Shown here: positions 1,778-64,000 of the stretch, piece by piece | How positions within the stretch are numbered: position 1 is the first letter of the stretch | Layout of the letters: every line of letters begins with the position of its first letter | Source of the DNA: a virus | Virus record (IMG/VR): IMGVR_UViG_3300002460_000003 | Location: 24,042-88,041 of that record | DNA: 64,000 nt | Direction: 5' to 3' (one strand) | The notes under the pieces: generated by a model | Seen by the model: the letters and a program-made list of their open reading frames with translations, nothing else | What the model was told of the DNA's origin: nothing | The model's database searches: none | Program-made: the position numbers and the translations under genes

Positions 1778-3462
1778 ATGAGTGATTTTAGTTTCTCACC
1801 AGCGTCTAAGAAACAAGAATGGTTCTTATCAAGTGACGCTAATATTATTGTATATGGTGGTAAATTTGTGCCTCCATTTAAAACTCTCTTAAACGGGGAA
1901 AGCTAAGGGTAGATTACTACCTATGCCAATCCCGTGCCAATGTTTAAAGACAGTGCGTAGAGGCCATCGAAAACACACAGCAATGTGGAAGTGAGTAGAG
2001 TAGGGGTCAAGTGACTCCCGAAACAGAGAGAATTCTTTGAATTAAGAGTTGGTCCGACAACACCTGAAAGGGTGGAAGAAGTTTAACGAACTTCAAAACT
2101 GATAAGGCAATGGGTGGTGGTAAGTCATATTGCGGCTTACTTCGCCATTTACGTTGGGTAGATGATCCACAATATCGTGGTTATGTAGTCCGTAAACAGC
2201 AAACAAGTATTATGGTTGCTGGTGGACTTTTTGACGAAGCTTATGGGTTATATAAAGCTTACGATCCAAATGTAAAACCAAATAAAAAAGCCATGACATT
2301 TACCTTCTCTTCCGGTGCGGTTGTGGCTATGGGTCACTGTGAAACCAATGAGGATGCTGAGAAATGGCGTGGTAGACAAGTATCGGCGTGCATGATCGAC
2401 GAGGCCACACAGCTTCTAGAAGACCATGTTTTGGTTATTCTTTCTCGCCTACGATCTAAAGCAAAAATGGTTCCAAACCTTTTCTTAACTTGCAACCCGA
2501 ACCCGGACAGTTTTGTTCGTCGTTGGATTGACTGGTGGATTATCCCTAAAGGTCAAGAGAATGCAGGAAGACCTGATCCAGAGCGTGATGGTAAGGTAAG
2601 ATGGTTTATTCGTCAAAATAACGAAATGATTTGGGCAGACACAAGGCAAGAGTTACTTGATACTTACGGAAGTCATGTACTCCCCCTCTCCTTACAATTC
2701 ATCTCAGCAACAATCTACGATAACCCACCACTAATTAAATCCAACCCTGGATATCTTGCAAACCTTCAAGGTCTTAAACGTGTAAAACAAGAACGCGACC
2801 TTTACGGAAACTGGGATATTCGTGAAGATGCTTCTGGTTATTGGAAAGCCGAATGGCTTGGTGAACCAGTTAATCCATGTGATTTAGAAATTGTTTCTTA
2901 CTGTAGAGCATGGGATATCGCTGGCTCGATCCCATCCGAATCCCTGCCAAATCCTGACTGGACTGCTGGAGTTTTAATAGGTAAAACAAAGACAGGGTTA
3001 TATGTCATCGAAGATGTTGTGAGATTCAGAGCAAGGTTTGGTGAAGTCTTACAGAGAATTATTGTTACCGCTAAATCTGATCCCGATGGTACTCAAATCA
3101 TACTCCCCCAGGAGCCTGGACAAGCAGGAAAAGCTGCTGGTCAAATGATGATTAAAGAGCTTATTGAGGAAGGGTTCTACGCAAGAATGCGCCCATCTAA
3201 TAAATCTAAAGTCATTCGTTTCCAACCTTTCGCAGCAGCAACAGAGGCTGGGTTAGTTAGATACGTGGCTGGTACTTGGAATGATGAGTATTTCTTTGAG
3301 CTAGAAGCATTCACTGGTGACAGAAAGAATAAGGATGACCAAGTGGACGCATCGTCTGATGCCTTCATAACACTGGCTCAGAAAATGAATATACCAAACT
3401 TCCTCACAGGATTAAAATCAGCCGATTCTATCCTAACAACTACTAACCCATTTGCCCGATAG
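1778..3462 (+). CDS. terL: Terminase large subunit, split by a group I intron: join(1778..1861, 2107..3462)
   Basis: This is the ATP-driven DNA packaging motor and headful or cos nuclease, acting at the portal vertex. Exon 1 (28 codons) ends in VYGG and exon 2 begins with the Ala codon GCA, restoring the Walker A sequence GGAMGGGKS at residues 27-35 of a 479-residue protein. The Walker B is CMIDEA (Asp126, Glu127), followed by the coupling motif LFLTCNPN and the RNase H-like nuclease with acidic residues in RAWDIAGS and DDQVDASSDAF. Without splicing, exon 1 reads 14 codons into the intron and stops at 1904-1906. Initiation at an ATG inside exon 2 (2110) would lose the P-loop beginning. The Shine-Dalgarno before 1778 is weak. 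No small terminase subunit was recognised upstream. Confidence 0.93.
1862..2106 (+). ncRNA. Group I intron (T4 td-like) in terL, without an internal ORF
   Basis: The 245-base insertion interrupts the terL P-loop. The 5' exon end ATGGTGGT pairs with the internal guide GCCTCCAT at 1870-1877, leaving one T-T mismatch and the diagnostic U-G pair at the splice site (T1861). The intron ends in G2106. Core blocks AAACGGGG (near 1890), AATCCCGTGC (near 1928) and GTCAAGTGACTC (near 2006) match the conserved core of the T4 td intron as I remember it. These blocks correspond to P4-P6 and the P7/P8 region. No homing endonuclease is encoded inside. Confidence 0.92.
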
Positions 3463-33665: not shown

Positions 33666-34388
33666 TTAGTTCTCCTCTAGTAATGCTTTGTAACTAACAG
33701 GGAAAAGTTCTTTTACAATGTCAGCTACTTGTTCAGCCACAATTCTAGTTTCATATTGGGTATCTTTCTTTAAGCGTAGCTTGAGCATATCGCAGAACGC
33801 ACCAAGTGTACCACTCCATACCCAAGTCGTCATCATTGATTGTGGCAATACCATGCGTGCTTCCTCTGCACAAACGCCTAAATCAAGTAGTGTATTGTAT
33901 GTCTCTAGTGCTGCTTTGTTTACTTCTTCAGGACGATAGATGCAATTACCTTCAACGTTCTCAATATGATCAATTACACTAATATCCACAGCTTCTTCAG
34001 AACTACCTTGCTTTACATTCTCAGCAGCCTTACGCCATGACTCAGGTGTGTAGAACTCAGGGTCATCTTTTACATACCGACGACTAACTTCATTCCAAGG
34101 CATAAACTTATGCTTCACCAGTTGACGTGCTACAAACACTGGTGCTTTTACACGAACACTGATAAAGCTGTGGTTGAATGGGCTGAAGTGCTTGTGTTTG
34201 GCAAGGTAATTAATAAGCTTTACATCTGAAACCTTGAGGTGCCCCTTTTCATCCCAACAAAGCCCACCCTCCTCATCATAGTAATCATGCTCCAGCTCAC
34301 TCTGCTTATCAAAAGAAGTTCTTGCTGCATCAACCACCGAAAGATCGTCACCACAATGGTTAATATATTCCACTTTAATCTGACTCAT
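33666..34388 (-). CDS. thyX: Flavin-dependent thymidylate synthase ThyX
   Basis: 240 residues. It makes dTMP from dUMP using FAD and methylene-tetrahydrofolate. The ThyX signature appears as ARQLVKHKFMPWNEVSRRY, where the usual RHR is KHK. The C-terminal LPQSMMTTWVWSGTLGAFCDMLKLR holds the substrate-binding and catalytic residues (PQ.....W..). It completes a dNTP pathway with NrdAB. It starts on an ATGA overlap with the small gene upstream. Confidence 0.93.
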   Translation of the reverse strand: MSQIKVEYINHCGDDLSVVDAARTSFDKQSELEHDYYDEEGGLCWDEKGHLKVSDVKLINYLAKHKHFSPFNHSFISVRVKAPVFVARQLVKHKFMPWNEVSRRYVKDDPEFYTPESWRKAAENVKQGSSEEAVDISVIDHIENVEGNCIYRPEEVNKAALETYNTLLDLGVCAEEARMVLPQSMMTTWVWSGTLGAFCDMLKLRLKKDTQYETRIVAEQVADIVKELFPVSYKALLEEN

Positions 34389-34561
34389 TCTTCCTCTCCT
34401 TTATCTTCCAAATTCTTTTTGTATTCTAGCATCTCCAAGTGCTGTTGCCAAGTATCGGCTGCAAACACTTCTAGTTCATACATCATACCTGTAGCTTTAA
34501 AACTATTGAAGGTTTCCTCTGAATCAACCCAAAAGAAATATTTGTCACTTGGTAGTTTCAT
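34385..34561 (-). CDS. Small hypothetical protein
   Basis: 58 residues (MKLPSDKYFFWVDSEETFNS... ending GEEE). It sits between the MazG-like gene and thyX and overlaps both neighbours by 4 bases (ATGA), a strong sign of a true coupled gene despite its size. Unknown function. Confidence 0.62.
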   Translation of the reverse strand: MKLPSDKYFFWVDSEETFNSFKATGMMYELEVFAADTWQQHLEMLEYKKNLEDKGEEE

Positions 34562-35037
34562 TTGTAAACCTCTGGAACAAACTTGCCAATATCCGGTGAC
34601 TCATGATGCTTCAACTTCATTACCTTGTTATCTACATTACGTTTTACAGTGTAGTAAAGCTCTCCATCATACTGTACAGACTCAACATAACACTCTTCTC
34701 CTTTATCTGCAAGGCATTCCTTACTCTCAGCGGCATAAGTATAGCTTGTAGTGAACTTGCTATCATTGTTCTCACATACAGCGTCCCACGCTTTCTTAGT
34801 GTCTACTTCCCCAGCGATTAGCAAGTCTTCCATGTATTCATTAGTGTAGCGTACATCAAGGAATCCATCAAGTACAGCCTGCATGTTCTCTTCTTCACAA
34901 GCATCAAGAAGTTCTTTTGCCTCCTCATACACACGTTCTGCTTGATGCTTCAGTTGTTTCCAGTATTCATAATCAGCCCCCATGTGTGGTGCATTGCCGC
35001 TGATTACATTAAATTTAGTTACACGGTAGTTACTCAC
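34558..35037 (-). CDS. MazG-like nucleotide pyrophosphohydrolase
   Basis: 159 residues. The N-terminal part is an all-alpha NTP pyrophosphohydrolase: HQAERVYEEAKELLDA (the EExxE motif), then DGFLDVRYTNEYM (the ExxD-type second metal motif). It probably removes unwanted or modified nucleotides. The C-terminal 60 residues (YYTVKRNVDNKVMKLKHHESPDIGKF) are extra. It lies inside the nucleotide-metabolism cluster. Confidence 0.75.
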   Translation of the reverse strand: MSNYRVTKFNVISGNAPHMGADYEYWKQLKHQAERVYEEAKELLDACEEENMQAVLDGFLDVRYTNEYMEDLLIAGEVDTKKAWDAVCENNDSKFTTSYTYAAESKECLADKGEECYVESVQYDGELYYTVKRNVDNKVMKLKHHESPDIGKFVPEVYK

Positions 35038-35315
35038 TGTTTCTCCTTCAGTTTAATTTCAAATTCATTAATAACATCCGACAACTCATTCACTTCTTTA
35101 GTCATACTATCGAAAATATCCTGCCTCTTTTCATTCAGGTATTCTAGATACTCACCACCCAACTCAAGCATTCGCGTTCGGTACTCTTCAATTGGTTCCT
35201 CCCAAATCTGTACACCTTGCCCATTCCACATTGTACCACGAGCAAACTTAGCCTCTTTACTAAGCTTCTCTTTAATCTTAGAAATTGTCTCATGAATATC
35301 ATCAAACTCAGACAT
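35034..35315 (-). CDS. Coiled-coil protein
   Basis: 93 residues, almost wholly helical with heptads (DDIHETISKIKEKLSKEAKF, DSMTKEVNELSDVINEFEIKL). It overlaps the MazG-like gene by 4 bases. It may be an oligomerising accessory protein; no family recognised. Confidence 0.55.
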   Translation of the reverse strand: MSEFDDIHETISKIKEKLSKEAKFARGTMWNGQGVQIWEEPIEEYRTRMLELGGEYLEYLNEKRQDIFDSMTKEVNELSDVINEFEIKLKEKQ

Positions 35316-35324
35316 ACTCCCTCC

Positions 35325-35873
35325 TTATAAATATCGACTACAAATCTTATTAACAACTTCATCATCCCAAACACCAAATGACATTTCAACTTCACACTGA
35401 ACATCTTGTGTATATGGTGTATTAAACAGTATTCGCTTCTCTTTGTCAAACCCCTTTAATTGACTCATACGATCATCAATCATTGCTACAACAGAGCCAT
35501 TCATTCCCCACTTCTCTTTAGTGAGCATTACACCAGACTTAAAAGGAAACCACTCATCCAGCCAATAGTACTTAGTCTTGCTGTGCATTCCCTTGTGTTG
35601 GCTGATGAAGAAGATATCGAAGTGCTCAGAGAGCTTTTCAAGCGCTTCAACACTACCTTGTATCGGGGAAAACTGACTGTAATCAAGCGTTCTCCAGTAG
35701 TGCAATGGGTCAGCCACAGAGGGGAACAACTCACTTAAATTGTATGGTAATTCCCCGACGATTTCTACTTCATTCTCAAATCCATTGTGGTATTGAAGGT
35801 ACTGTATCCACCCCTCATCAGAGGGGCAAACACAGAGGTCAACATCGCACCCCAAGATGGGCTTAGTCACCAT
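35325..35873 (-). CDS. HAD-family 5'(3')-deoxyribonucleotidase-like protein
   Basis: 182 residues. HAD motif I is LGCDVDLCVC (nucleophile Asp and acid Asp two residues later), motif II FFISQHKG, a Lys in LTKEKWGM, and motif IV VAMIDDRMSQL. The layout resembles phage 5'-nucleotidases/deoxyribonucleotidases that recycle nucleotides. It overlaps the upstream gene by 11 bases. Substrate is inferred from family and context. Confidence 0.72.
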   Translation of the reverse strand: MVTKPILGCDVDLCVCPSDEGWIQYLQYHNGFENEVEIVGELPYNLSELFPSVADPLHYWRTLDYSQFSPIQGSVEALEKLSEHFDIFFISQHKGMHSKTKYYWLDEWFPFKSGVMLTKEKWGMNGSVVAMIDDRMSQLKGFDKEKRILFNTPYTQDVQCEVEMSFGVWDDEVVNKICSRYL

Positions 35874-36351
35874 ACTGTAGTTCCAAGATCAGTTCAAGGT
35901 AGTGAATTGCCTTTTCAATATCAGCCTTACCATTCTTCAGCTTGTGGCGAGTTGTGTATTTAATCACATTCCCTTGGAAGTAATCAAGACCGTTAGCTTG
36001 AATATACTCAACTGGTTGAATCTTACAACCTTTGTAATGGCCCCCACTCACTTGCTTGTCTAGTGCCGATAGTGGGTTGGTTGTGTAAACCTCAACACTG
36101 TCTTCTTTAGTATTCAGAAGGACTAGTGGGTTTGTACCAAAACTTTCAACACCAATATAACCCTCTGCATTCCCGGGCTTACTAGTCCACAATCCAGAGT
36201 CGTAGGCTTTGATAGTCCAACCCGGTTCCCCATAGTATCCCTCATCAGTAAAAGAAATAAGTTCTACATATTTAGAACAATCCTGCTCTAATAAACCCCA
36301 ACCAGTCTCTTTAATCAAAACAACATCACCAGATTTCAAATCACTATTCAT
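35863..36351 (-). CDS. DUF3310 domain protein
   Basis: 162 residues. The C-terminal part VSGGHYKGCKIQPVEYIQANGLDYFQGNVIKY then DIEKAIHYLELILEL is the DUF3310 domain common in phages and related to T7 gp1.7-type nucleotide kinase regions. The N-terminal 90 residues look like a small beta-barrel (SGDVVLIKETGWGLL). Role in nucleotide metabolism is probable. Confidence 0.72.
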   Translation of the reverse strand: MNSDLKSGDVVLIKETGWGLLEQDCSKYVELISFTDEGYYGEPGWTIKAYDSGLWTSKPGNAEGYIGVESFGTNPLVLLNTKEDSVEVYTTNPLSALDKQVSGGHYKGCKIQPVEYIQANGLDYFQGNVIKYTTRHKLKNGKADIEKAIHYLELILELQYGD

Positions 36352-36360
36352 ATTTACTCC

Positions 36361-37140
36361 TTACAAATATTTTTCTAATAGGTATTTAAGAGAAACAAAA
36401 CAAGGATCATATTTACCCTCGCTCACTTGGTTCTTCATGACAACACCACGCCAGTGAGACTTATTCCCTTGGCTTCCCATGTAACCTTCATCATGCATAT
36501 AAAATGCACCAGCTACAAGCCCTTGTCGTGCCTCACCATCTGGTAGGAACTGAATACCGTATTGCAGCGTTTGTTGATGGCCCATGCTGAATGACCAACC
36601 CAAGTTCTTCAACTTAGCATCAATATTACCACCTACACAGTTTTTCAGCAAGCTATTTGGATTAACAAAGTAATGACTATACCGAATACCATCGATATTG
36701 ACAATCTCTAGAAAATCATGACACTCCCAGCCTGCTTCAGCAAAGCCAAGGTCATCAACTGAAATAAGACCTTCTAGTTTACGATCATTCTCAATAGCCC
36801 GCTCAATCCGCGCCTGGTCATGATTTCCGTAGCACATAACCATTCGTGGTTTATACTGCTTCTTACGGTTCAATGCTTGCCGCATGTTGTATTCTTTGAG
36901 TGGACCTAGTAAAACATCCATTGCTTTACGTGAAGATTCAATATCTTTCGTATACATACGACCCTCGAAAGACTTCTTACCCACATCATAGGAACTTAAA
37001 CTAGGCATATCTGCCCAATCGCCGATCATTACAATAACTTCTGGTTGTTTTTTAACGATGTAATTTCCCAATGCTTCAAGATGCTGAAGTGGTACACCAT
37101 CTTTTGCTTGTACATCTGGAATAAACAAATGTCGAGTCAA
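36361..37140 (-). CDS. Calcineurin-like metallophosphoesterase
   Basis: 259 residues. Metal-binding motifs appear in order: FIPDVQAKDG (Asp, with Gln in place of His), MIGDWADMP, YGNHDQARIE and later GHQQTLQYG. Phage members act on nucleic acid ends or nucleotides; the substrate here is unknown. It is followed by the DUF3310 gene 9 bases later. Confidence 0.78.
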   Translation of the reverse strand: MTRHLFIPDVQAKDGVPLQHLEALGNYIVKKQPEVIVMIGDWADMPSLSSYDVGKKSFEGRMYTKDIESSRKAMDVLLGPLKEYNMRQALNRKKQYKPRMVMCYGNHDQARIERAIENDRKLEGLISVDDLGFAEAGWECHDFLEIVNIDGIRYSHYFVNPNSLLKNCVGGNIDAKLKNLGWSFSMGHQQTLQYGIQFLPDGEARQGLVAGAFYMHDEGYMGSQGNKSHWRGVVMKNQVSEGKYDPCFVSLKYLLEKYL

Positions 37141-37141
37141 C

Positions 37142-37393
37142 TTATTCTCCTTTCAATTTAAGATATGATTCTAAACTCACATGACTAAACTCAACTAACG
37201 TAGCGTAAAGATTGTACTTCTCTGCCGCATTAAGAGTTTGAAAGCTATCAAGACTAGCATCAAGCGTGCCAAGAAAGAACTCAAAGTGTGCTCTCAAACT
37301 CTGCTCACTGATATGTACATCACCAGATGATACTTTGTGTGGAGTGTTTTCTCTACTTGGGAATTGATATATATTGTCATCTTTATCAGTCAT
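37142..37393 (-). CDS. Hypothetical protein
   Basis: 83 residues. The ATG at 37393 fits GGAGG better than the TTG one codon upstream. Charged, helical C-terminus (LNAAEKYNLYATLVEFSHVSLESYLKL). The start overlaps the stop of the preceding 34-codon gene (TGATG). Unknown function. Confidence 0.55.
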   Translation of the reverse strand: MTDKDDNIYQFPSRENTPHKVSSGDVHISEQSLRAHFEFFLGTLDASLDSFQTLNAAEKYNLYATLVEFSHVSLESYLKLKGE

Positions 37394-37497
37394 CAAATAC
37401 CTCCAGTAATCTGAGTTAACCAGATATTGGCAAACACTCCCACTTGCACAAGAAGTGAGTAGTTGCTATAGCTCCAATAAAGCTCTTCACTATTCAT
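37393..37497 (-). CDS. Very small membrane-type protein
   Basis: 34 residues, ending QITGGI, with a hydrophobic stretch SLLVQVGVFANIWLTQI. A strong GGAGG stands 9 bases before the ATG, and both ends overlap neighbours (4 bases upstream; TGATG downstream). These features support translation even though the product is tiny. Confidence 0.5.
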   Translation of the reverse strand: MNSEELYWSYSNYSLLVQVGVFANIWLTQITGGI

Positions 37498-37856
37498 TTC
37501 TTTTTACCTCCAATATATTCAGTAGTTGGTGGTATTGGGAGATAAGTAGTAGAAACACAATCTGCAAGCTTAGTATTCATACTATAAGGTGTACATTTAG
37601 GACAACCACACGACAATCCCATAGGCTTCATTCTATCTTCTGGTGGCAGTGAATCAAATGCACAGGTGCTTGTAATAGAGCCACCTTTACCTAAGTTTCT
37701 ATCTCCCCATAGAGGTTCAGTTTGCCAGTAACTGGGGTCAACTTGGATATGATATTTATTCCTAAGTTGTGTATCAATATACCTGTTCACGATGAAAAGC
37801 TCTTTCTCAAGAGCATCAACTCTCTTCACTAAGGCATCCAAATCAATATCTGTCAT
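37494..37856 (-). CDS. Hypothetical Cys-containing protein
   Basis: 120 residues from ATG 37856, chosen for GGAGGAGA upstream. The N-terminus is a coiled helix (DIDLDALVKRVDALEKELFIVN). The C-terminal half contains LSCGCPKCTPYS, a possible half zinc site. Unknown function. Confidence 0.55.
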   Translation of the reverse strand: MTDIDLDALVKRVDALEKELFIVNRYIDTQLRNKYHIQVDPSYWQTEPLWGDRNLGKGGSITSTCAFDSLPPEDRMKPMGLSCGCPKCTPYSMNTKLADCVSTTYLPIPPTTEYIGGKKK

Positions 37857-37998
37857 TTGTCTCCTCCTTATAAAACTCAAGAGCCAATTCATCTAACTCT
37901 CTACCAAAAGCATTAACATCTGCTTCTAATTGCTTTAGTCTGTCTTCAAAGTCAAGCATCTTTCGTGTTAGGATTTGGTAATCAATATCATCTATCAT
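37843..37998 (-). CDS. Small coiled-coil protein
   Basis: 51 residues, helical (RKMLDFEDRLKQLEADVNAF). It overlaps the next gene by 14 bases and the previous one by 4 bases (ATGA), so it fits the tightly coupled operon. Unknown function. Confidence 0.55.
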   Translation of the reverse strand: MIDDIDYQILTRKMLDFEDRLKQLEADVNAFGRELDELALEFYKEETNDRY

Positions 37999-38210
37999 TC
38001 TTCGTCCCTCAGAATCTTTAAACCCATCACTTTAGTGAAATCGGGAATCATATTCCCATTATAGATTAATCGCCATGTACCGTCTGGTAGTTGATCAAGA
38101 TGAATCATATTCTGTTTAGTTTTTACTGCTGTGGCTTTAGACAGCACAAGCACCTCACCAGTTCCCTCTAGCTCGATAGCTCGATAAGTGTCACCCTTCA
38201 TTTTGCTCAT
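37995..38210 (-). CDS. Hypothetical protein
   Basis: 71 residues, beta-rich (YRAIELEGTGEVLVLSKATAV, then DGTWRLIYNGNMIPDFTKVM). GAGAGG precedes the ATG. It overlaps the HNH gene by 20 bases. Unknown function. Confidence 0.55.
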   Translation of the reverse strand: MSKMKGDTYRAIELEGTGEVLVLSKATAVKTKQNMIHLDQLPDGTWRLIYNGNMIPDFTKVMGLKILRDEE

Positions 38211-38733
38211 TCTTCAACACCTCTCTAATCAAATTACGTCGAGTTTCAGCATTCTTACTATAACCTGAAATACCATTTTTAGCTAGGAATTTATCTTGAT
38301 CTGATGCTTTTTGTTTACATAGGGCAATGACTTCACTTTCAATGATCGCATCAGCCAGTGGAATGTTCAGCTTCTGTGATAATGTAACGTGGGAATGGCA
38401 TGTATGGCACAACTCCCTAATGTCATCAAACGTCACCCATAGAATCATTTTAGCCCATTCTGTGAATGTTTGCCAATCTTTAAATCCGTAACCGCCCTCC
38501 AAATGATCAACCTCGCAAGTGCGTGACTGTTGCCCACACATCTCACAGTCACTACACCATACCTCTTTACCCTTCACACCAATAGGTGCTTTGTAACGTC
38601 TCTGTTGTTTGTAAGCAATTTTCACCGGATGGCGGGACCAGATGCGGCGGATTGAACCTCTTAGCCAATTGAAGTAGGCTTTCTCATCCTTCCAAGGTGA
38701 GTTTGGAATTTTCCATGGTTCTTTCATTCCCAT
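38191..38733 (-). CDS. HNH-like nuclease
   Basis: 180 residues. A zinc-binding HNH-type core is seen: CSDCEMCGQQSRTCEVDHLEGG (central DH), followed about 30 residues later by ELCHTCHSHVTLSQKL. It may process replication or recombination intermediates in the same way as phage endonuclease VII-like proteins, or be a homing enzyme. Its setting next to the 5'-3' exonuclease favours the first. Basic N-terminus (IRRIWSRHPVKIAYKQQRRYK) suits DNA binding. Confidence 0.7.
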   Translation of the reverse strand: MGMKEPWKIPNSPWKDEKAYFNWLRGSIRRIWSRHPVKIAYKQQRRYKAPIGVKGKEVWCSDCEMCGQQSRTCEVDHLEGGYGFKDWQTFTEWAKMILWVTFDDIRELCHTCHSHVTLSQKLNIPLADAIIESEVIALCKQKASDQDKFLAKNGISGYSKNAETRRNLIREVLKNEQNEG

Positions 38734-39062
38734 GCTGGTACGAACTTTTCTGTCTTCTGCTTCGTAACGTAATGAGCAGGGATGACTTGTTCAGGGACAA
38801 GCTCTTGATACTCTTCTACCTTGCAGTAGTCAACATCGTCCCACTCACAGCCCCAGTCATCGCTCCATGTACCATTTAGGGTGACACAAACCCCTAGGAA
38901 ATCAGAGGCATCAATATCATCATTCTTTAATTCCTCTACATCTGTTTGAGTGAATGTATGGCTCACCCATGCATAGAATGACGAACCTTTACGGTGCTCT
39001 TTCTCAAACTCACCGGCCTCTGCCACATAGTCTTGCAACTGTTCTTTAGTAATTTTATTCAT
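38724..39062 (-). CDS. Hypothetical acidic protein
   Basis: 112 residues, strongly acidic and Trp-rich (TWSDDWGCEWDDVDYC). It overlaps the genes on both sides by 8-10 bases. The charge could suit DNA mimicry, but nothing in the sequence proves it. Confidence 0.55.
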   Translation of the reverse strand: MNKITKEQLQDYVAEAGEFEKEHRKGSSFYAWVSHTFTQTDVEELKNDDIDASDFLGVCVTLNGTWSDDWGCEWDDVDYCKVEEYQELVPEQVIPAHYVTKQKTEKFVPAWE

Positions 39063-40140
39063 AATCCACCTCCATAGCTTTTAAAAAATCACGAACATGA
39101 CCAACATCTTTAGTAACATCTGTTCGCATCCTCAACAACCTAAACTGTTCGTTCAAATGGTCAAGCCAATTACGTTCGGATACATCACCCCTGAAAGATT
39201 TAAATGGTTGTTTCTCATCTCCGTAGAACGCTCTATAAGCCTCTACAACACGTTCAAATACTTCTTTAGGGCTTTGTGCATCTCCAACTAAAGCTCTTGC
39301 TGTCTTCTCTCCTAAACCCTTTCCTGAGCGCCTAATTGCATACTTCTTATGTAGTTCATCAGTAAGCTTTGGTAAGCCCGGAATTGAGTCAATTGTATCT
39401 CCGCTGAGGTGCTGACTTGCCAAGTTCTTAATAGCTTCAAGTGGTGTTATCTCAACTAATCCAAGTTCAGGTTTATCGAAGTTGTAGTGGATTTGTGGAT
39501 ATTGTCCTAAATCTTTATCACACCAAACCCCAACAACACTGAGCTTATCAAAGTCCCTCTTAGCTTTAATCCAACCTTTCCAAAGCTCCTGAGTTACAAT
39601 CTCATCTGTCTCAACACCTTCTGCTATAACCATATGTGCTTTGTATTTAGTCAACATGTATTCTTTGACAACATCATACAACAAAGGTTTACTTGGTCGT
39701 TCATTTTTATATGGTTGGGTCTGAGCAATATCATAACGGAAATTCTCACCAACACCAAAACAAATCTTGAAGTCTTTACACCAAGGCTGGTTTGTGATTA
39801 CCTCAATCTTAGATTTGAATCGCCCTTTAACAATTTGCTCTGGTGTTACAACAGCACCACTATAGTTAGTAGTCCCTGTAAGCAAACGAACACCAGCAAC
39901 AACTTCAAAAGCATCTGGTGAAACTTTATCCAATCCTTTCTCAATCTTTTTAGCATTCACTTCAGCAAGCCAACCACCTTCTTTTTTCCAGTGATCACCA
40001 AAGAAAGCTGTCTGGTTTTTAAACTCCCTAGTCCAGTTGGTTTCTTTGTGTGTGACAGTGACGAATGTTTCTTGAGCTGCTAGGGCAGCATGAATGATGA
40101 GAGTATCAACGTCAATTATTGCTGTGTATTGTTTAGTCAT
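39055..40140 (-). CDS. 5'-3' exonuclease, T7 gp6-like (PIN/FEN family)
   Basis: 361 residues. Acidic metal ligands occur in AIIDVDTLI, in VIAEGVETDEIVTQ and in VGVWCDKDLGQ. The helix-hairpin part appears as LSGDTIDSIPGLPKLT and GLGEKTARALVGD. The basic QPYKNERPSKP matches the substrate-binding helix of T7 gp6 and T5 exonucleases. It removes RNA primers and degrades host DNA. Confidence 0.88.
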   Translation of the reverse strand: MTKQYTAIIDVDTLIIHAALAAQETFVTVTHKETNWTREFKNQTAFFGDHWKKEGGWLAEVNAKKIEKGLDKVSPDAFEVVAGVRLLTGTTNYSGAVVTPEQIVKGRFKSKIEVITNQPWCKDFKICFGVGENFRYDIAQTQPYKNERPSKPLLYDVVKEYMLTKYKAHMVIAEGVETDEIVTQELWKGWIKAKRDFDKLSVVGVWCDKDLGQYPQIHYNFDKPELGLVEITPLEAIKNLASQHLSGDTIDSIPGLPKLTDELHKKYAIRRSGKGLGEKTARALVGDAQSPKEVFERVVEAYRAFYGDEKQPFKSFRGDVSERNWLDHLNEQFRLLRMRTDVTKDVGHVRDFLKAMEVDYE

Positions 40141-40146
40141 AATACC

Positions 40147-40467
40147 TCACCAGACATGAGCACCACCACGAACACGAGGTTTAACTCCAGTTAGTTCTTC
40201 AAAGCTATTGGCAGCAGCTTGTACTTCTGCAAACCATTGTTCATTAATCTCGTGATAGTTTGGAATCTTAAATCCAATAAACCAACTCTCAGAGGGAGAA
40301 TCATAATACGGACTTGCGGTTTCAAAGTAACACTCAATCACTTCATGCGGGTCTTCACAAGCTTCATGTTTAACTGTTTCACCACCTTCAATAATCTTTT
40401 CAAAGAAGTCCTCTAACTCATCATAAGAGCAGCCAACAAGCAAACTGTGGTCTACATCAATACCCAT
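40147..40467 (-). CDS. Hypothetical protein
   Basis: 106 residues. The ATG at 40467 is preferred because GGAGGTAGAT precedes it. Acidic first half (YDELEDFFEKIIEGGETVKHEACED) and PRVRGGAHVW at the end. It lies one short gap from the exonuclease gene. Unknown function. Confidence 0.55.
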   Translation of the reverse strand: MGIDVDHSLLVGCSYDELEDFFEKIIEGGETVKHEACEDPHEVIECYFETASPYYDSPSESWFIGFKIPNYHEINEQWFAEVQAAANSFEELTGVKPRVRGGAHVW

Positions 40468-40512
40468 ATCTACCTCCAAAGAATAAGGAGCATATTTCAG
40501 CTCCTATTTATA

Positions 40513-40761
40513 TTAACTATACATCTCTTGAATTTCTTGAAGCTTCTTCAGCTTATCTGCCTTACCCTGCAAATCATCAGATTTAGCTTTAGCTACAGCA
40601 GCATTGATAATCTCTTTTACACTATCCTTCTCAAAACCCTCAGTGTTGTATTCTTTATCGTAAGTAAACTCCCCAATTAGCTCCTTCATATCTTCCTTGT
40701 TGGTGATAGCTTCTTGAGCCAGTTGGTATGCACGGTTGTAAAGTGATTGAAGTTCTTTCAT
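40513..40761 (-). CDS. Hypothetical helical protein
   Basis: 82 residues, mostly charged helix (ELQSLYNRAYQLAQEAITNKEDMKELIGE). AGGAG precedes the ATG. It is separated from the ssDNA-binding protein gene by a hairpin. Unknown function. Confidence 0.58.
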   Translation of the reverse strand: MKELQSLYNRAYQLAQEAITNKEDMKELIGEFTYDKEYNTEGFEKDSVKEIINAAVAKAKSDDLQGKADKLKKLQEIQEMYS

Positions 40762-40797
40762 TATTTATTTCTCCTCAGTTTGTTTAAGTTTTATAAT

Positions 40798-40830
40798 GCC
40801 CATTACTTTGAAATACTCTCCATAATGGGC
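40798..40830 (-). terminator. Hairpin after the ssDNA-binding protein gene
   Basis: On the minus strand GCCCATTA (40830-40823) pairs perfectly with TAATGGGC (40805-40798), followed by ATTATAAAAC. The 8-bp stem with a 17-base loop lacks a true T-run. It is more likely a stabiliser or weak attenuator of the ssb transcript. Confidence 0.45.
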
Positions 40831-40847
40831 AAGTTATTGCTTATTGA

Positions 40848-41528
40848 TCAGAACGGCAGTGGATCGGCGTTATCATCTTCAGGTTCTTGTTCTGGTGCAG
40901 CTTTGGCTGGAACGTCTTGTTCAGCAGCCTTTCCTTCAACCTTCTTCACCTTGTAAGACACACCAAGTACATCATCCTCAACACTATCAGCAGCGGCTTT
41001 CTGTTCATAAGGAACATGCTCAAGCACTTGCAGAGTATCCAGAGTGACAACCACCTGATTGTCTTGGTTACGATAGCCAAACAGTTTCAGTGTACAAACA
41101 GAACCATTACCTACGTTCTCAGTGAAGGCAGAACCATCAGCACCAATCACATTGACGGTCATTGGATTCCCTTTTTTACTGAACTCAGGCTTGGCTACAG
41201 TGAAGCCGTACATACCCTCAACAGCATCATAATTTACTTTCCCCTCCTCAACTTGGGAAGACAGTGGATATTTGATTCGACGTGGTGGCTTAGAGGTTTT
41301 ATCCTTACCAACAAGTGCAAAACTCTTATTCACCATCACTTCATCAAGCAGCTTATCTTTAGTCTCTTCATCAACAAACACAGTCACACTGTATTCACGA
41401 TCATCAGATTGATACTTCTTCTTAGGATCATGAACTGTAGCATAGAATACTGAAGCATCTTTGATATAGAGATTCACAGTTTCCAGACCACCAGTTTTAG
41501 GCAGTTCACGAATTACGATACTAGTCAT
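40848..41528 (-). CDS. Single-stranded DNA-binding protein, T7 gp2.5-like
   Basis: 226 residues. A beta-rich OB-fold body (NLYIKDASVFYATVHDPKKKYQ, EYSVTVFVDEETKDKLL) is followed by an acidic tail ending EPEDDNADPLPF. Acidic tail plus terminal Phe is how T7 gp2.5 and bacterial SSB contact polymerase and helicase. It protects ssDNA and coordinates the replisome. The family is inferred from length, tail and position. Confidence 0.8.
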   Translation of the reverse strand: MTSIVIRELPKTGGLETVNLYIKDASVFYATVHDPKKKYQSDDREYSVTVFVDEETKDKLLDEVMVNKSFALVGKDKTSKPPRRIKYPLSSQVEEGKVNYDAVEGMYGFTVAKPEFSKKGNPMTVNVIGADGSAFTENVGNGSVCTLKLFGYRNQDNQVVVTLDTLQVLEHVPYEQKAAADSVEDDVLGVSYKVKKVEGKAAEQDVPAKAAPEQEPEDDNADPLPF

Positions 41529-41623
41529 ATTTATTTCCTCTTTCGGTTGTGTATAATTTAGTCACTTAAAGTTGAGACTATTACATTTGCCTTTCGGCTG
41601 TTACTTGTGTTTCCACAAATTCA

Positions 41624-41815
41624 TCAAATCTTCCCAGTCTCAGCAATAATCTCTAGTGCTTGGAAGCTAGGGACTACTTGTCGGATACCACTATACTCGT
41701 TTACATCAGCAGTTGCAAGTAGTTGTAGAATTTTATACATACCACTCCATGAGCTTGCAGACCGTTGTAGTGCTTTACCTTTTCGAGCTAGACGCTTTTT
41801 AGTTTTCAGTTTCAT
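41624..41815 (-). CDS. Small basic protein
   Basis: 63 residues with a Lys/Arg-rich N-terminus (MKLKTKKRLARKGKALQRSA). AAGGAGAAACAA precedes the ATG. The basic start may bind nucleic acid. Unknown function. Confidence 0.55.
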   Translation of the reverse strand: MKLKTKKRLARKGKALQRSASSWSGMYKILQLLATADVNEYSGIRQVVPSFQALEIIAETGKI

Positions 41816-41825
41816 TTGTTTCTCC

Positions 41826-42026
41826 TTAGATTACTTGATTACATAGACGAACAGCTTGGTTTAGGGATTCTTCACTGGCTAGCTCACTTTCAATTGATAC
41901 CTCATCCAGCTCAAAGTCTCCCTTATTAACATTTTCCCATGCAAGTTCCAGAGCTTCGTCTTCATTTTCCGCATCTTGAACCACAACAGAACAATACGCT
42001 TTAACTAACACCTCATACGATGGCAT
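41826..42026 (-). CDS. Small acidic protein
   Basis: 66 residues from ATG 42026, chosen for AGAGGAGAAGC upstream. PSYEVLVKAYCSVVVQDAENEDEALELAWENVN is a pattern frequent in small phage proteins related to beta-alpha folds. Unknown function. Confidence 0.58.
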   Translation of the reverse strand: MPSYEVLVKAYCSVVVQDAENEDEALELAWENVNKGDFELDEVSIESELASEESLNQAVRLCNQVI

Positions 42027-42039
42027 GTTGCTTCTCCTC

Positions 42040-42255
42040 TTATTTACTAAACAGTTTAACAAGACCTAGGAATACTAGTGCAATACCAGCTAGACTCAGT
42101 ACAAAAGCAATTGGTAGCCACAATGGACTAAGTACCCACCACCAACTCCAAGCAGCTACAGCACCAATCCCAGCAAGCTTTAGAGTGATGAACACAATAG
42201 CCAGCAAACCACAGAAACCAATACCACCAGTTGAAGCTTCAGATTTGTTACTCAT
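42040..42255 (-). CDS. Small membrane protein, fragile-X-F-associated-like
   Basis: 71 residues with two membrane helices (about 15-33 and 42-66). The stretch IVFITLKLAGIGAVAAWSWWWVL with SPLWLP is the phage form of the transmembrane Fragile-X-F family. Role in infection unknown. Confidence 0.7.
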   Translation of the reverse strand: MSNKSEASTGGIGFCGLLAIVFITLKLAGIGAVAAWSWWWVLSPLWLPIAFVLSLAGIALVFLGLVKLFSK

Positions 42256-42266
42256 CAGTGTACTCC

Positions 42267-42560
42267 TTATTTAAGTTTAGATTCATCAAAAGCTTCAAAT
42301 GTAATGATAGCTTTACATGACTGCATCTTACCATTTTTGTAGTAACTTTTCCACTGGTCGCCTTGCTCCTCACCATCCCCTTCAACAACGATCAGTTGGT
42401 CAGGGAACATTTTACTTACCTCTTTGCAATGTTCGTCACAACCATACCACTTGGCATTCATAGTACCATTGTACCAGCCACCGTAGCCGGAAGCCTCCTC
42501 AATAGCTGTAATAACTTCAGGGCTGTTACTGGAAATATCAAAGTCTGTGTAATAACCCAT
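42267..42560 (-). CDS. Hypothetical protein
   Basis: 97 residues from ATG 42560 (AAGGAGGTACG just upstream). GYYTDFDISSNSPEVITAIEEASGYGG, NAKWYGCDEHCKEVSKMFPDQ and GDQWKSYYKNGKMQ form a compact alpha/beta pattern seen in phage hypothetical proteins. Unknown function. Confidence 0.6.
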   Translation of the reverse strand: MGYYTDFDISSNSPEVITAIEEASGYGGWYNGTMNAKWYGCDEHCKEVSKMFPDQLIVVEGDGEEQGDQWKSYYKNGKMQSCKAIITFEAFDESKLK

Positions 42561-42561
42561 C

Positions 42562-42729
42562 CTAACGTACCTCCTTGACAGCTTCCAATACAAAGCGCTT
42601 CTGGATAATCTTAGCATTAATATTACTTTCTTTCCAATACTTTTTCTCTGCTCTCGCCTCACTCCGAGTAAAGCACTTATAAGACGGACCATTCTCTGTT
42701 ACAACAAGGTACTCATATTTTGTAGTCAT
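42562..42729 (-). CDS. Small hypothetical protein
   Basis: 55 residues (MTTKYEYLVVTENGPSYKCF... ending VKEVR), basic. The stop lies one base before the next ATG, whose ribosome site is inside this gene. AGGAGATTTAAA precedes the start. Unknown function. Confidence 0.58.
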   Translation of the reverse strand: MTTKYEYLVVTENGPSYKCFTRSEARAEKKYWKESNINAKIIQKRFVLEAVKEVR

Positions 42730-42743
42730 TTTAAATCTCCTCT

Positions 42744-42986
42744 TTAAACATAGCCAATTTGATAGAACTCGTCAAGTGCAGTAATGACGTTTGTATATGC
42801 TTGTGCACATAGAGGACCACTTGCATCCTTCTCAAGACTTTCAAGAAGCTTCTTCACCACATCCATAGTAAACGTCACATCAGCGACAGCTAAATCTACA
42901 TCAAGAATTAGCTCAAGGGATTCATCCCATGTTAGATGACTAATCATATCTCTAACATCGATCTCCACATTTGTTAATACATTCAT
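42744..42986 (-). CDS. Hypothetical protein
   Basis: 80 residues, acidic helical (VRDMISHLTWDESLELILDVDLAVADV). It is the first gene behind the minus-strand promoter at 43041-43069. Unknown function. Confidence 0.58.
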   Translation of the reverse strand: MNVLTNVEIDVRDMISHLTWDESLELILDVDLAVADVTFTMDVVKKLLESLEKDASGPLCAQAYTNVITALDEFYQIGYV

Positions 42987-43040
42987 TCATCCTCTCCTCA
43001 TTCAATTTATCAATGCCCTTTATCTCTTGAGCTGGTATGT

Positions 43041-43069
43041 ATTATTTCAGATTTACAGGGTTGTGTCAA
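43041..43069 (-). promoter_or_regulatory. Sigma-70 promoter, minus strand, after the polymerase gene
   Basis: On the minus strand TTGACA (43069-43064) is followed 17 bases later by AATAAT (43046-43041). It lies in the gap behind the polymerase gene and would drive the 42986 gene and those downstream including the SSB and exonuclease. Confidence 0.72.
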
Positions 43070-43089
43070 GGGAATATTTGGTTATTTTA

Positions 43090-45234
43090 TCAGTGAATGT
43101 CTGAATACCTATAACCATATTGCGTGTCACACCCAAGCTTCCTACGTAGTTTATACTTTTCATTCACAATGTCAATAGATGATAGAATAATTTCCTTAAA
43201 CTCCTCCTTATACTTCGGTAAGTCCTTGATTACTAAGACATTCTCATCATGAAAGGATGCTGTCAAGGTCTTCTTGCCATACTTAGCCTGCATTTGGTCT
43301 AGGATAGCATCTACCCACATATCAAAGAAATAGCTGCCTGTACCTTGGGCAAGTGTAGAGAACCTATCAGACTCTTTTCGTAATGCATAAGCGAACCCGT
43401 TAACTGGGTTGACAAGCCACTTGTTACCCTTGCTGTCACGGATTACAACCTGTTCTTCTGCAATAGCTTTTACAGACCAGTTTAGCTTCCAGTAAGCCTC
43501 ATGTAGAGCTTTACCTTCTGCAAGACTTACACCTGCTGCCTGAGCAATCTTGGCAGCCCCAGCATTATACACAGAAGCATAGTTAGTTGTCTTACCTTTC
43601 TTACGTGCTGCCTTTGCATTAGCCGATTTATAACCACGCTTGAAGTCTTCAAACTCTTTCTGTGTAACCATTCTAGCAGTGAGTGCCATCAAAATGTGTG
43701 GGTCAAAGTCATCCTCCTGCATTGTTGCAACATAATCAGGGTCATGAGCCAACATGAAGTGATGCTTGCAACGGTCTTCAAGGCTGCTAAGGTCAGAGCC
43801 TACACTTGTTTTACCTTTGCCAGCAATCAGCACACCACGAATGTCTTTACCATATGCTTTATCTACTCCGGGCAGATTAACCAACTCTCGATGCTGAACC
43901 CTGAGTGTATTAGTGAAGCCACCAATACGGGCTTGTAACCATTTACCATCCTTCAAGTCACGGATGAAACCCTTAACCAACCCTAAGCGGTGCTTTGCTA
44001 CGTTGTAGGCTGCATACTTACGAATCTCTGGTACTTGTTCAGCCAGCTCTAGTACAGACTCACACAACTCCTTACCATCGTCACCACCTACTGTTATCTG
44101 TGGAATAGCACGTTCCTCTGGACGACACTCTTTCCACTCATTCCACTTGCTATGATGTGACCCTTCCTTTGGTTTCTTAGCAATCCAAGCATTAAATTTA
44201 TCTTCGTCTTTCTCATATTTGAAAGATATTGGTTCCCAGCCATAGGAGTAAAGCAGGCTTTTAACCTGAATAGGTGATGATGCACTTGGTTCTTCATAAC
44301 CAGTGAGCACCTTAAACACACCTTTTACATCTGTTTCTTCAACCTTCAGTGTACCATTTTCATCCACTTCCTTAGCTTTAAAAGTCTCCATCAACTCTTT
44401 CCACTTAACACCGATAACAGAAAGGGTTCCATCCTTCTTGAATGACTTCTTTGGGGCTTCCTTCTTAGAATACTGAGGAACTCTTGGCATAACGCTTTCA
44501 AGTTCATCCTTTGCAGCATTACATATTACTTCAAGCTTGGCCTCTGTTTCAAGTAGAAGATCAACATCAACTTCCCACATTGTTTTCTCTTGTAGCCGAG
44601 CGCAGTCCATCTTGAACATCAAAAATGTCAGCAGGCGGTTGATGTGATCTTCAACAGACAAACCAACAAGATCATCAATAGCTAAAGATTCATCATCAGA
44701 AATCCGCTTACCACCAACTGCCCCAGCATCAATCTCAACCTTAACAGTTGTGTAGATTTCTATTAGGCGTTGTTTTAAGTCTTTCCACAAAGCTTGGTTG
44801 ATCTTAACGTCTTCTTTTACACGATTCTCATACACTTCATAAGGCTGTTCAGACCAATCATCTACGGCAGGTTTCTCAATACCATAGTCTTCATGGAATG
44901 AACCCAAACCATGTACACGACGATTAAAATTGAGATACCAGCTTACAGCCAACGTATCAATTAGCATCAAACGTGACAAATCAATATTAAACAGCTTCTC
45001 CATAAGTGGAATATCAAATGATATACCGTTATGCATGACCATTGGAATTTCATTATCCATGTGGTATAGAAAGCACTTAACGATTCTGTCTGACTGAGTG
45101 CTACCGTTAAATGTAGAGACTCCCTTACCATCTAACTGATAACCCAATACATGCAGCTTTGTGGCTACATCTAGGAGTCCATCAGATTCTAGGTCAGCCA
45201 CAGTGGCCTTTTTCCAGTTGTAAATCTTTTTCAT
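43090..45234 (-). CDS. DNA polymerase, family A (T7-like)
   Basis: 714 residues, close to T7 gp5. The 3'-5' exonuclease begins with VADLESDGLLD. Polymerase motif A is GSDLSSLEDR, motif B KAARKKGKTTNYASVYNAG and motif C TASFHDENVLV. It replicates the phage genome, probably with a host processivity factor as in T7; that factor is not seen here. Start ATG follows AGGAGGGCAA. Confidence 0.94.
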   Translation of the reverse strand: MKKIYNWKKATVADLESDGLLDVATKLHVLGYQLDGKGVSTFNGSTQSDRIVKCFLYHMDNEIPMVMHNGISFDIPLMEKLFNIDLSRLMLIDTLAVSWYLNFNRRVHGLGSFHEDYGIEKPAVDDWSEQPYEVYENRVKEDVKINQALWKDLKQRLIEIYTTVKVEIDAGAVGGKRISDDESLAIDDLVGLSVEDHINRLLTFLMFKMDCARLQEKTMWEVDVDLLLETEAKLEVICNAAKDELESVMPRVPQYSKKEAPKKSFKKDGTLSVIGVKWKELMETFKAKEVDENGTLKVEETDVKGVFKVLTGYEEPSASSPIQVKSLLYSYGWEPISFKYEKDEDKFNAWIAKKPKEGSHHSKWNEWKECRPEERAIPQITVGGDDGKELCESVLELAEQVPEIRKYAAYNVAKHRLGLVKGFIRDLKDGKWLQARIGGFTNTLRVQHRELVNLPGVDKAYGKDIRGVLIAGKGKTSVGSDLSSLEDRCKHHFMLAHDPDYVATMQEDDFDPHILMALTARMVTQKEFEDFKRGYKSANAKAARKKGKTTNYASVYNAGAAKIAQAAGVSLAEGKALHEAYWKLNWSVKAIAEEQVVIRDSKGNKWLVNPVNGFAYALRKESDRFSTLAQGTGSYFFDMWVDAILDQMQAKYGKKTLTASFHDENVLVIKDLPKYKEEFKEIILSSIDIVNEKYKLRRKLGCDTQYGYRYSDIH

Positions 45235-45291
45235 TTGCCCTCCTGTGTTGTGTCAGCAACAATACCACAAATAACTGACCAAGTAAATAGC

Positions 45292-47010
45292 TTAGAGTGA
45301 ATCTCCTTCCCACTCATACTGTAGGAGGAGTCCTGTTGCTTGGTCATAACGTGTCTTAAATTTATCTTCGCCACCAAACATGCGATTTTTGATACAACCC
45401 AAGAAGCTGTTAGCTTTTAGGTCTCCCTGTGCATGTTTGTTACGTTCAAAGCTCATAATCAATGGGAAAGCACGCATGATACCACGACTGCCTGTAAGCT
45501 GACTAGCAAGCACTTCACCGCCATTCTCATGGTCTTTCATATCCTTACCCTTTGGTGGGTTAAGGTGACTATAGAGGTCAATGTGGACATCCAGTTCTGC
45601 TGCAAGGTTAGCCAGCTCACTAGACCACTTATTAATAAACTCATTAGCTTCACCACTTGATAGATGGTCAACTAGTCGTGTCATGTTATCAATAGCATGA
45701 AAGCGTACACCATACTCCATTGTATTGTAGCGGATTGCTTTTACAATTTCTTCAATGTCAAATCTGTTTTGTGCTGCTTGTCCATCAGACTCCCATAGGA
45801 ATAGTTTACCCTCTAGGCTATAAGCTGTCTCTAGATACTGCTCTCGGTGACGTTCATGAATATTTGGTACGTGGTATGGGATACCATCAATTTTACCAGC
45901 AATGTTATACAAAGTGGAGCGGTTAGGTTCTTCAAGCAAGGCAACAAACACTTTTTCATTGTGTTGTGTGATGTTGTGTGCGTGCTTCATGTGTGCGATC
46001 AGTGTTTTACCTAAACCAACACCTGCTGCTGTACAAGTAGCCTCTCCCATACGCTGAGTACAGTTCATATCTGTAAACGCCTGCCAAGGATAAGCAAAGC
46101 CGGGCTTAGGTGGCTCAGAGTCACGAGACAAGACAGTAGACACGCCAACAACACCTTCAGTAACAGGCTTTGCACTCTTCCAAATACAGAAGTCTGCAAA
46201 CAAGTCACTATCCCCACGTTGTAGGGCTTCATTAGCATCCTTGGCGTTAGTTGGGTAAGTGTTCACTTTAACGTCTGGCATAATCTTCTGTACATCTTTT
46301 ACAGCTTTCTTACCAGCCTCATCGTTATCAAAAACAAGAACAATTTCAGTGAAGAATTTGTTAATCTCCTTACGCATACGTCCTAGAGTAGTAACAGCAC
46401 TACCCACACCATGAGGCAGACTTACCACAGAGAACTTGTTGTAAGAGCTTTTACGCTTCTCTGCATGAGCCTCAAGCATCTGCTCTAGTGCCCGACAATC
46501 CCACTCACCTTCTGTGATGTATAGGCGAGGCTTAGGGCCATTAGCATTCTTCTTTGCAATCTCCCAATTGAATAGGTCAGCACCTTTGATATCACCAACA
46601 GACCACATTGCTTTCTTATCAAGCATGATGGCTTTATAGCCAAGTAGTTTACCCTCAAGTGTATAAGGGAAGTTAAAGGTAAAAGGTGTTACGCCATCAA
46701 ACTCGCTGTAAGCCAGCTTAATACCAGATTTAGCAAAGTATTCAGGGTTAATGCCCCGATGAACAAACTTAGGAGCTTTTAGGTTACGAATCTCTTGGAT
46801 TTCTTCGTTGATTTCATCCTCTGATTTTCGCTTAGGTGGCTTTGGTAGCTTACCATTATAAGGGTCTTCTATATATGCCTCAAGACCTTTTGCAGCACAG
46901 CTAAAGCAATAACCAGAGAACGTATTTTTACCGTCATCATAGAACACTTGCAGGCTGTTCTCAGACTTACAATGTTCAACAGCATGTTTAATCTTTTCTA
47001 CGCAGCTAAT
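45292..47010 (-). CDS. Primase-helicase, T7 gp4-like (probable AUU start)
   Basis: 572 residues if begun at ATT 47010, six bases after GGAGG. The usual choice, GTG at 46947, would remove a Cys-containing N-terminus (SCVEKIKHAVEHCKSENSL) that with GYCFSC forms the primase zinc domain. The first zinc ligand is not certain. Toprim motifs are YITEGEWDCRALE and IVLVFDNDEAGKK. The helicase Walker A is AGVGLGKTLIAH, followed by DnaB-type motifs (DVHIDLYSHLNPPKGK). It unwinds DNA and makes primers at the fork. Confidence 0.88.
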   Translation of the reverse strand: MSCVEKIKHAVEHCKSENSLQVFYDDGKNTFSGYCFSCAAKGLEAYIEDPYNGKLPKPPKRKSEDEINEEIQEIRNLKAPKFVHRGINPEYFAKSGIKLAYSEFDGVTPFTFNFPYTLEGKLLGYKAIMLDKKAMWSVGDIKGADLFNWEIAKKNANGPKPRLYITEGEWDCRALEQMLEAHAEKRKSSYNKFSVVSLPHGVGSAVTTLGRMRKEINKFFTEIVLVFDNDEAGKKAVKDVQKIMPDVKVNTYPTNAKDANEALQRGDSDLFADFCIWKSAKPVTEGVVGVSTVLSRDSEPPKPGFAYPWQAFTDMNCTQRMGEATCTAAGVGLGKTLIAHMKHAHNITQHNEKVFVALLEEPNRSTLYNIAGKIDGIPYHVPNIHERHREQYLETAYSLEGKLFLWESDGQAAQNRFDIEEIVKAIRYNTMEYGVRFHAIDNMTRLVDHLSSGEANEFINKWSSELANLAAELDVHIDLYSHLNPPKGKDMKDHENGGEVLASQLTGSRGIMRAFPLIMSFERNKHAQGDLKANSFLGCIKNRMFGGEDKFKTRYDQATGLLLQYEWEGDSL

Positions 47011-63083: not shown

Positions 63084-63335
63084 ATGAAAACAGTTGTTTT
63101 ATATAAGTCAATTATAAATGACGATGAGTGTGAATATTATATCTTTTATCACTGGGAAGAGTTTAAAGGTGAAATGGTGTGGATTTGTGATGAATTGGAA
63201 CGATGGACGTATGATGAGGCATGTTTAAAGTACCCTGTTGATGAATATCGTTGGAGGCAAGCAGACCGCGACATTGAAGACATTTTAGAGGATGATAGAA
63301 TTAATACTTATAGTGCATTAAACCTAAACCAATGA
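63084..63335 (+). CDS. Small acidic protein
   Basis: 83 residues, rich in Glu, Asp, Trp and Tyr (DDECEYYIFYHWEEFKGEMVWICDELERW). AGGAGG upstream. It overlaps the next gene by 4 bases. The strong negative charge would suit a host-protein or DNA-mimic inhibitor, but there is no direct sign. Confidence 0.57.
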   Translation: MKTVVLYKSIINDDECEYYIFYHWEEFKGEMVWICDELERWTYDEACLKYPVDEYRWRQADRDIEDILEDDRINTYSALNLNQ

Positions 63336-63529
63336 AACGGTATTCAATACGTAGTACAATTGGTTATGCTTATGCACAATTCCCAGCAAACAACAAAGCT
63401 GAAGCTTTAGAGTGTGCTGTAAGACATGCAAACCACATGGATATTGAATATTACACAGTGGCTTATGTAGGTAAGTGGTACGGAGACGATAACCCGCAAG
63501 AGTACCACGTTAAAATTACTACCAATTAG
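63332..63529 (+). CDS. Small hypothetical protein, last gene of the arm
   Basis: 65 residues (KRYSIRSTIGYAYAQFPANNKAEALEC, YTVAYVGKWYGDDNPQ). 4-base overlap with the previous gene, followed by a terminator. Unknown function. Confidence 0.57.
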   Translation: MKRYSIRSTIGYAYAQFPANNKAEALECAVRHANHMDIEYYTVAYVGKWYGDDNPQEYHVKITTN

Positions 63530-63538
63530 CAACAAAAC

Positions 63539-63559
63539 AGGCCGCTTTATGCGGCCTTT
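63539..63559 (+). terminator. Terminator at the end of the early arm
   Basis: AGGCCGC (63539-63545) pairs with GCGGCCT (63551-63557), loop TTTAT, then TTC. GC-rich stem with a short T-run; partly symmetric. Confidence 0.72.
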
Positions 63560-64000
63560 CACATACCCTATACAACCCCACTCCCTACACTCTAAAGCAT
63601 CTAAAACAACGCTGTACTATAGGATAATAGACAATATCAGGCTATCTATCAAGTCACTCTCTGCTAGCCTTCTAAATACCCTTCAAAGCCTTATGAATAC
63701 TTATCCACAGACTTATCCACAACCTCTAAGCTATTACTTAAAATAGTACATACCTGTGGATAACCTGTGGATAACTTTAATCACTGTAAGAGTGTATCGA
63801 ATTAGTGACAATGTCCTTCCTCCCTATCACATCCTTTAAAACCCTTTATGGGTTAAGCACACTAACATCCCACTATCAACCCTTTTCTCATCTTATTTAC
63901 AAATTTCTTTTCTCTATCACCTTCTACCAATCGATTAATACATTCAATTGTACAGATAGCTGCTGCTGACAGATAATAAACCCATCGAAGTAAACAACCA
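63560..64000. other. Non-coding region, probable origin
   Basis: About 440 bases without a gene having a ribosome site. It contains the DnaA-box cluster, a short hairpin AACCC-TTTAT-GGGTT near 63831-63845 and AT-rich, pyrimidine-rich DNA from about 63870 on that could unwind easily. Confidence 0.55.
63701..63774. repeat. Four perfect DnaA boxes
   Basis: TTATCCACA occurs at 63701-63709 and 63713-63721 in direct orientation. Its reverse complement TGTGGATAA occurs at 63755-63763 and 63766-63774. Start-to-start distances are 12 and 11 bases, about one helical turn, so bound DnaA would line up on one face in each pair. Confidence 0.9.

Follow-up and report, generated by a model that had tools for sequence, protein, structure and literature searches.

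The 64,000-nucleotide stretch of viral DNA analyzed here (the window) carries four exact copies of the DnaA box TTATCCACA between positions 63701 and 63774, two on the plus strand facing two on the minus strand within 74 bp of non-coding DNA. On the full record the array occupies contig 87742-87815. DnaA is the protein that bacteria use to begin chromosome copying. We read the array as a predicted functional site for capture of host DnaA, added to a gap at the genome end. Capture or sequestration of DnaA is suggested as its leading role, with a probability of roughly 0.4.

The array and its phage

A stretch of 101 bases is duplicated at the termini of the 88,041-base record (G000), and the right end of the window (contig base 101) joins contig base 102. 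Due to the duplication the record closes to an 87,940-base circle, representing a complete genome. Besides a family A DNA polymerase and a T7-like primase-helicase (Table 1), the phage encodes ribonucleotide reductase, ThyX and RNA ligase. By protein comparison the nearest isolates are Otagovirus phiPsa374 and Nankokuvirus phages, with TerL identities of about 44-46% and a PolA identity of 58% to phiPsa374. Searches of the genome for integrase, Rep_3, ParA, DnaA C-terminal and IstB/DnaC-like families gave zero matches. From these absences and from its relatives the phage is apparently virulent, in agreement with the first-pass annotation, which had described a lytic phage with its own T7-like replisome.

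Origins of the P1 oriR type have clusters of DnaA boxes that flank a short segment on both sides. The window differs from such phage-plasmid and plasmid origins in having no Rep_3 (PF01051), ParA (PF13614) or integrase match, and a phage-plasmid or temperate origin was rejected on the lack of matches to these three families.

Table 1. Positions of the DnaA boxes, of elements in the surrounding gap and of genes used for comparison.
Feature	Window position	Strand	Remarks
Terminase large subunit (TerL)	2110..3462	+	anchor of synteny comparison
Family A DNA polymerase (PolA)	43090..45234	-	58% to phiPsa374
T7-like primase-helicase	45292..46947	-	phrog_239
Last plus-strand small gene before gap	63332..63529	+	65 aa, no family match
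Left part of ~0.9-kb convergent non-coding gap	63530..64000		continues to contig base 537
Terminator-like hairpin GGCCGC TTTAT GCGGCC	63539..63560		closes plus-strand gene block; scan scored minus strand
Array as imperfect inverted repeat	63700..63775		10 bp + 9 bp box stems + 6-bp inner stem
DnaA box 1	63701..63709	+	exact TTATCCACA
DnaA box 2	63713..63721	+	exact TTATCCACA; starts 12 bp after box 1
DnaA box 3	63755..63763	-	exact, inverted; box 1-box 3 span 63 bp
DnaA box 4	63766..63774	-	exact, inverted; starts 11 bp after box 3
Nearest AT-rich tract	about 63882..63913		80% AT over 30 bp, genome top 1%, ~110 bp from array; weak, possible unwinding element

The exact positions of the four boxes and their arrangement as two inverted pairs, both proposed in the first-pass annotation, were confirmed. 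Start-to-start distances along the array are 12, 42 and 11 bp, so that the helical-turn spacing also noted there holds within both pairs. The whole 88,041-base record contains six exact boxes, the remaining two (at 13493 and 14364) lying within one structural-region ORF. First-order Markov simulation of the genome gave an expectation of 1.2 ± 1.1 exact boxes; the densest simulated 80 bp held two, a value reached in 1 of 150 simulations and never exceeded. The estimated rate for four boxes in 74 bp is about 1 × 10−10. A chance cluster of a common 9-mer could draw on the two further exact copies and on a surplus of matches with at most one mismatch (35 observed against 20.7 expected in the genome). 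Set against that rate, the simulated maximum and the recurrence of a fixed arrangement across viruses, its likelihood is negligible, and as far as sequence allows the simulation rules it out.

The array separates two convergent gene blocks: the small-gene block on the plus strand stops at 63529, the minus-strand block ends at contig 538, and ~0.9 kb lies between them. The boxes are in practice outside genes, as originally described. The only overlap, of the first box pair with a mechanical 65-aa ORF (63549-63746), is not credible because the start of this ORF lies within the terminator hairpin. The neighborhood of the gap consists of fast-changing small genes. Among the genes checked beside it, PHROGs identified solely an HNH nuclease, and most small genes had no match. 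The HNH endonuclease gene (L126:538-1680, minus strand) adjoins the genome-end gap. Just past the window end (L126:116-196) is a hydrophobic ORF of 26 aa, accompanied by a ribosome-binding-like site and by a hairpin resembling a terminator, possibly a unit for a small membrane peptide.

DnaA could act here on transcription, as a roadblock or repressor between the convergent blocks or on the small unit to the right of the array. DnaA is a known transcription factor (PMC8203912), an activity that would suit such control, and the array is placed between the terminator-like hairpin and the small ORF unit with promoter-like sequence. We nevertheless consider control of transcription improbable, since the 7 promoter-like matches in the gap exceed the shuffle mean of 4.0 ± 1.8 only modestly and each block already has a terminator-like hairpin of its own.

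The symmetry of the array also allows folding of a single strand, with a predicted energy of −15.8 kcal/mol (z −7.4). Priming hairpins of the ABC-primosome kind are known from plasmid R6K, and the sequence might work as such a priming site, or as a terminator, in single-stranded DNA or RNA rather than as boxes in duplex DNA. Inverted boxes pair automatically, though, and the arm spacing is off by 1 bp (12 against 11). The phased spans found in other viruses favor duplex binding. A hairpin as the main function is disfavored by this helical phasing and seems still less probable than control of transcription.

The corresponding junction in related phages

In phiPsa374 convergent gene blocks flank an annotated direct terminal repeat of 526 bp. 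TerL lies about 26 kb from the gap in this genome and about 29 kb from the left end in Otagovirus M5.1. In view of the matching gene order and TerL distance the gap was taken to correspond to the genome ends; on gene order rather than mapped termini, it would be the physical end of the genome. The likeness to phiPsa374 and the Nankokuvirus phages covers the convergent blocks around a terminal repeat and the similar distance to TerL. In two respects phiPsa374 differs from the window: its ends are free of boxes, and its replication block is opposite in strand relative to the structural genes. The replication block of the window (27882-46947) is on the minus strand. In Pseudomonas phage PseuGes_254 this block is likewise on the minus strand (PMC11512268), unlike in phiPsa374, and the block therefore appears inverted between related phages.

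No box cluster was found in relatives. The genome ends of phiPsa374 and UAVern contain no DnaA boxes, and viral contigs retrieved by TerL (50-100% identical) have zero to three scattered boxes each, without a cluster. In three complete relatives (G003, G006 and G010; TerL 72-80%) the gene blocks converge on an equivalent gap, located 22-26 kb upstream of TerL, and it is free of boxes. As G002, the long contig nearest to this genome (TerL 90%), seems not to reach the junction, absence at the junction applies to those three genomes. A search for near relatives via the gene next to the gap returned nothing, nor did blastn of the region against isolates. Because the same gap is without boxes in relatives, the array is not an ancestral obligatory origin, and a conserved replication origin of the group is ruled out. 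The array looks like an optional, lineage-specific addition to a region that otherwise holds other conserved elements, as judged from these sequence comparisons.

Two of the relatives, G003 and G006, have common non-coding junction blocks 21-25 kb upstream of TerL (94% over 158 bp and 83.5% over 382 bp). These blocks (within L184-L188 and L179-L183) are conserved although the adjoining genes diverged, and perhaps represent terminal-repeat or packaging signals. The block with 94% identity over 158 bp is missing from the genome studied here.

In E. coli, oriC and datA/DARS have clustered boxes, with opposed arrays about one helical turn apart, and the oriC arrays consist mostly of weak sites. 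The array in the window has an opposed, helically phased layout that resembles oriC, which would fit an auxiliary start of replication where DnaA on the facing pairs opens the AT tract and loads host DnaB for early rounds before the phage replisome takes over. This possibility, which we place second to capture but rate as rather unlikely, would also agree with the frequent position of direct pairs elsewhere beside primase, helicase or replication initiation genes and with the 80% AT tract at ~110 bp. Unlike oriC, all four boxes are perfect, and there is neither a strong unwinding element next to them nor an IHF site, no IHF consensus having been found across the gap. The AT-rich setting that the first-pass annotation had reported is weakly expressed (61-63% AT in the gap against 60% genome-wide) apart from that single 30-bp tract. 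GC skew turns at the gap, placing the array at a transcription-convergent skew maximum, which speaks against a start there; since skew tracks gene direction throughout the genome, the turn is no origin marker. Further arguments against an auxiliary start are the missing site in relatives of the same layout and the predicted origin of a related phage, which is placed where the inverted replication block ends (PMC11512268). The proposal that the array recruits or titrates DnaA stays the natural reading, whereas its origin half is weakened by the box-free relatives and by the lack of a strong unwinding element.

Phased arrays in other viruses

A search of viral contigs for a direct pair of boxes, 11-12 bp apart, facing an inverted box gave at least 119 matching stretches, and a reversed-letter control pattern gave 0 matches in the same search. 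The first three boxes in these sets are exact by search design, so that box identity is no evidence of selection. Of the 84 non-redundant arrays among the matches listed, 70 have 2-3 bp between the paired boxes. Across all 84 the total span peaks near 44, 54 and 64 bp, with a Rayleigh nR2 of 24 at 10.5 bp. The phasing persisted after lineage thinning to one array per cluster (n = 35; median nR2 8.4, simulated P 2 × 10−4). The array in the window follows the same spacing, with pairs of 12 and 11 bp and a span of 63 bp within the 62-65 bp peak. The claim that such clusters are rare in phages is less supported, as at least 119 viral contigs and T5-like phages have them. The literature searched, of which coverage was partial, contained no account of a phased grammar of this kind in viral contigs.

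Intergenic gaps with arrays are larger (median 407 bp) than the other gaps of these loci (median 180 bp), and 15 of the 84 arrays fall inside a mechanical ORF of at least 100 aa. The orientation of flanking genes showed no clear preference across the 84 arrays. A rule that arrays adjoin terminase genes was weakened, the excess in the first array set being largely due to a few related lineages (several with a TerL of ~619 aa); the second set leans towards primase and replication genes. Three stretches (L030, L063 and L084) gave matches on each strand, with gaps that differ slightly from those of the window. The exact arrangement of two direct and two inverted boxes with these narrow gaps had no further viral match; four MAG contigs match it.

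One lineage (L011, L013, L017, L038, L066 and L125) carries two direct and two inverted boxes between the Rz spanin and TerS genes. The array of this lineage falls in the cos neighborhood of its relatives, and 5 of the 6 members retain the fourth box, which lies outside the search pattern, while the spacers have diverged.

DnaA boxes in phage terminal repeats are already known from T5. The T5-like phages (Demerecviridae, BF23, ESCO30) resemble the window in having perfect TTATCCACA in non-coding DNA at the genome end (a predicted position in the window), facing an inverted cluster, and the GAC spacer of their direct pair is identical to that in the window. In the terminal repeat of BF23 boxes occur at 5377, 5438 and 5450 on the plus strand and at 8994 and 9055 on the minus strand. 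They are spread over ~3.7 kb of a 9.7-kb repeat around the pre-early genes, whereas the four boxes of the window are confined to 74 bp of a ~0.9-kb gap. The array shares the 21-mer pair TTATCCACAGACTTATCCACA with the BF23 left terminal repeat, a 21-mer that is in turn widespread in viral contigs. Blast with the array gave similar pieces in 280 of 50,697 phage records and in 114 of 72,556 plasmid records.

By analogy with T5, the array could be an element for DNA entry or for the genome ends, with DnaA pausing or anchoring incoming DNA in the style of the T5 injection stop, or protecting or processing the ends. DnaA boxes are listed among the features of the T5 injection stop signal (2026 paper, PMC13250531). 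The correspondence of the gap to the 526-bp repeat of phiPsa374 by gene order, the boxes of the BF23 left repeat including the shared 21-mer pair, and the arrays that adjoin TerS/cos or TerL in other lineages are in line with such an element. We regard it as unlikely, since the ends of phiPsa374 and UAVern lack such boxes and no pre-early A1/A2 genes in the style of T5 appeared beside the gap among the PHROGs matches of the genes checked. Location is weak proof because non-coding room concentrates at genome ends, and the 21-mer pair is widespread in viruses.

In Lactococcus phage 949 (L216:3504-3524) a 1-kb gap where two gene blocks converge contains two exact boxes on the reverse strand, at a distance of 12 bp.

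Proposed capture of host DnaA

Perfect boxes in phased pairs point to host DnaA binding cooperatively to duplex DNA. A direct pair and its inverted partner would bring the bound DnaA molecules to the same face of the helix; we propose that this would allow cooperative binding and a compact DnaA-DNA complex. Once the phage has reached tens or hundreds of copies, its four sites per genome would amount to hundreds of strong sites, a number comparable to that of the host, which would draw DnaA away from oriC. Binding, cooperativity and sequestration at the array are all inferred. Capture of host DnaA is probably also the purpose of the recurring arrays, going by their sequence pattern.

In favor of capture are the clustering beyond chance, the recurrence with helical phasing, the phage's own replisome and the absence of the array in relatives. 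Several points stand against it. E. coli has hundreds of high-affinity boxes (PMC12371093). In a host with such numbers, four sites would count only after phage DNA has accumulated or if they act locally, and the four sites added by a single incoming genome are negligible. Stopping host initiation may be unnecessary for virulent phages of this type. An origin, too, would show helical phasing, and arrays elsewhere occur in varied contexts, on the terminase side and on the primase side, so that a single role may not apply to all of them.

It is doubtful whether many unrelated phages independently place compact, phased, inward-facing arrays in the gap at their genome ends, be it a terminal repeat, cos or the flank of terminase, as a general device for capturing DnaA during takeover. 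On such a general reading, which we hold with reserve, the window would be an example, from a group of phages not known to carry such arrays. If true, virulent phages would act on the host replication initiator via DNA sites instead of proteins, a takeover device easily missed by gene-based annotation. It would be relevant to the DnaA boxes, as yet unexplained, close to the T5 injection stop signal, and it would provide simple search rules: paired boxes, 11-12 bp apart, with a phased span.

Array-like DnaA sequence was also present in non-coding DNA of four Microviridae records (H41, H47, H62 and H63), where a role in single-strand priming is conceivable.
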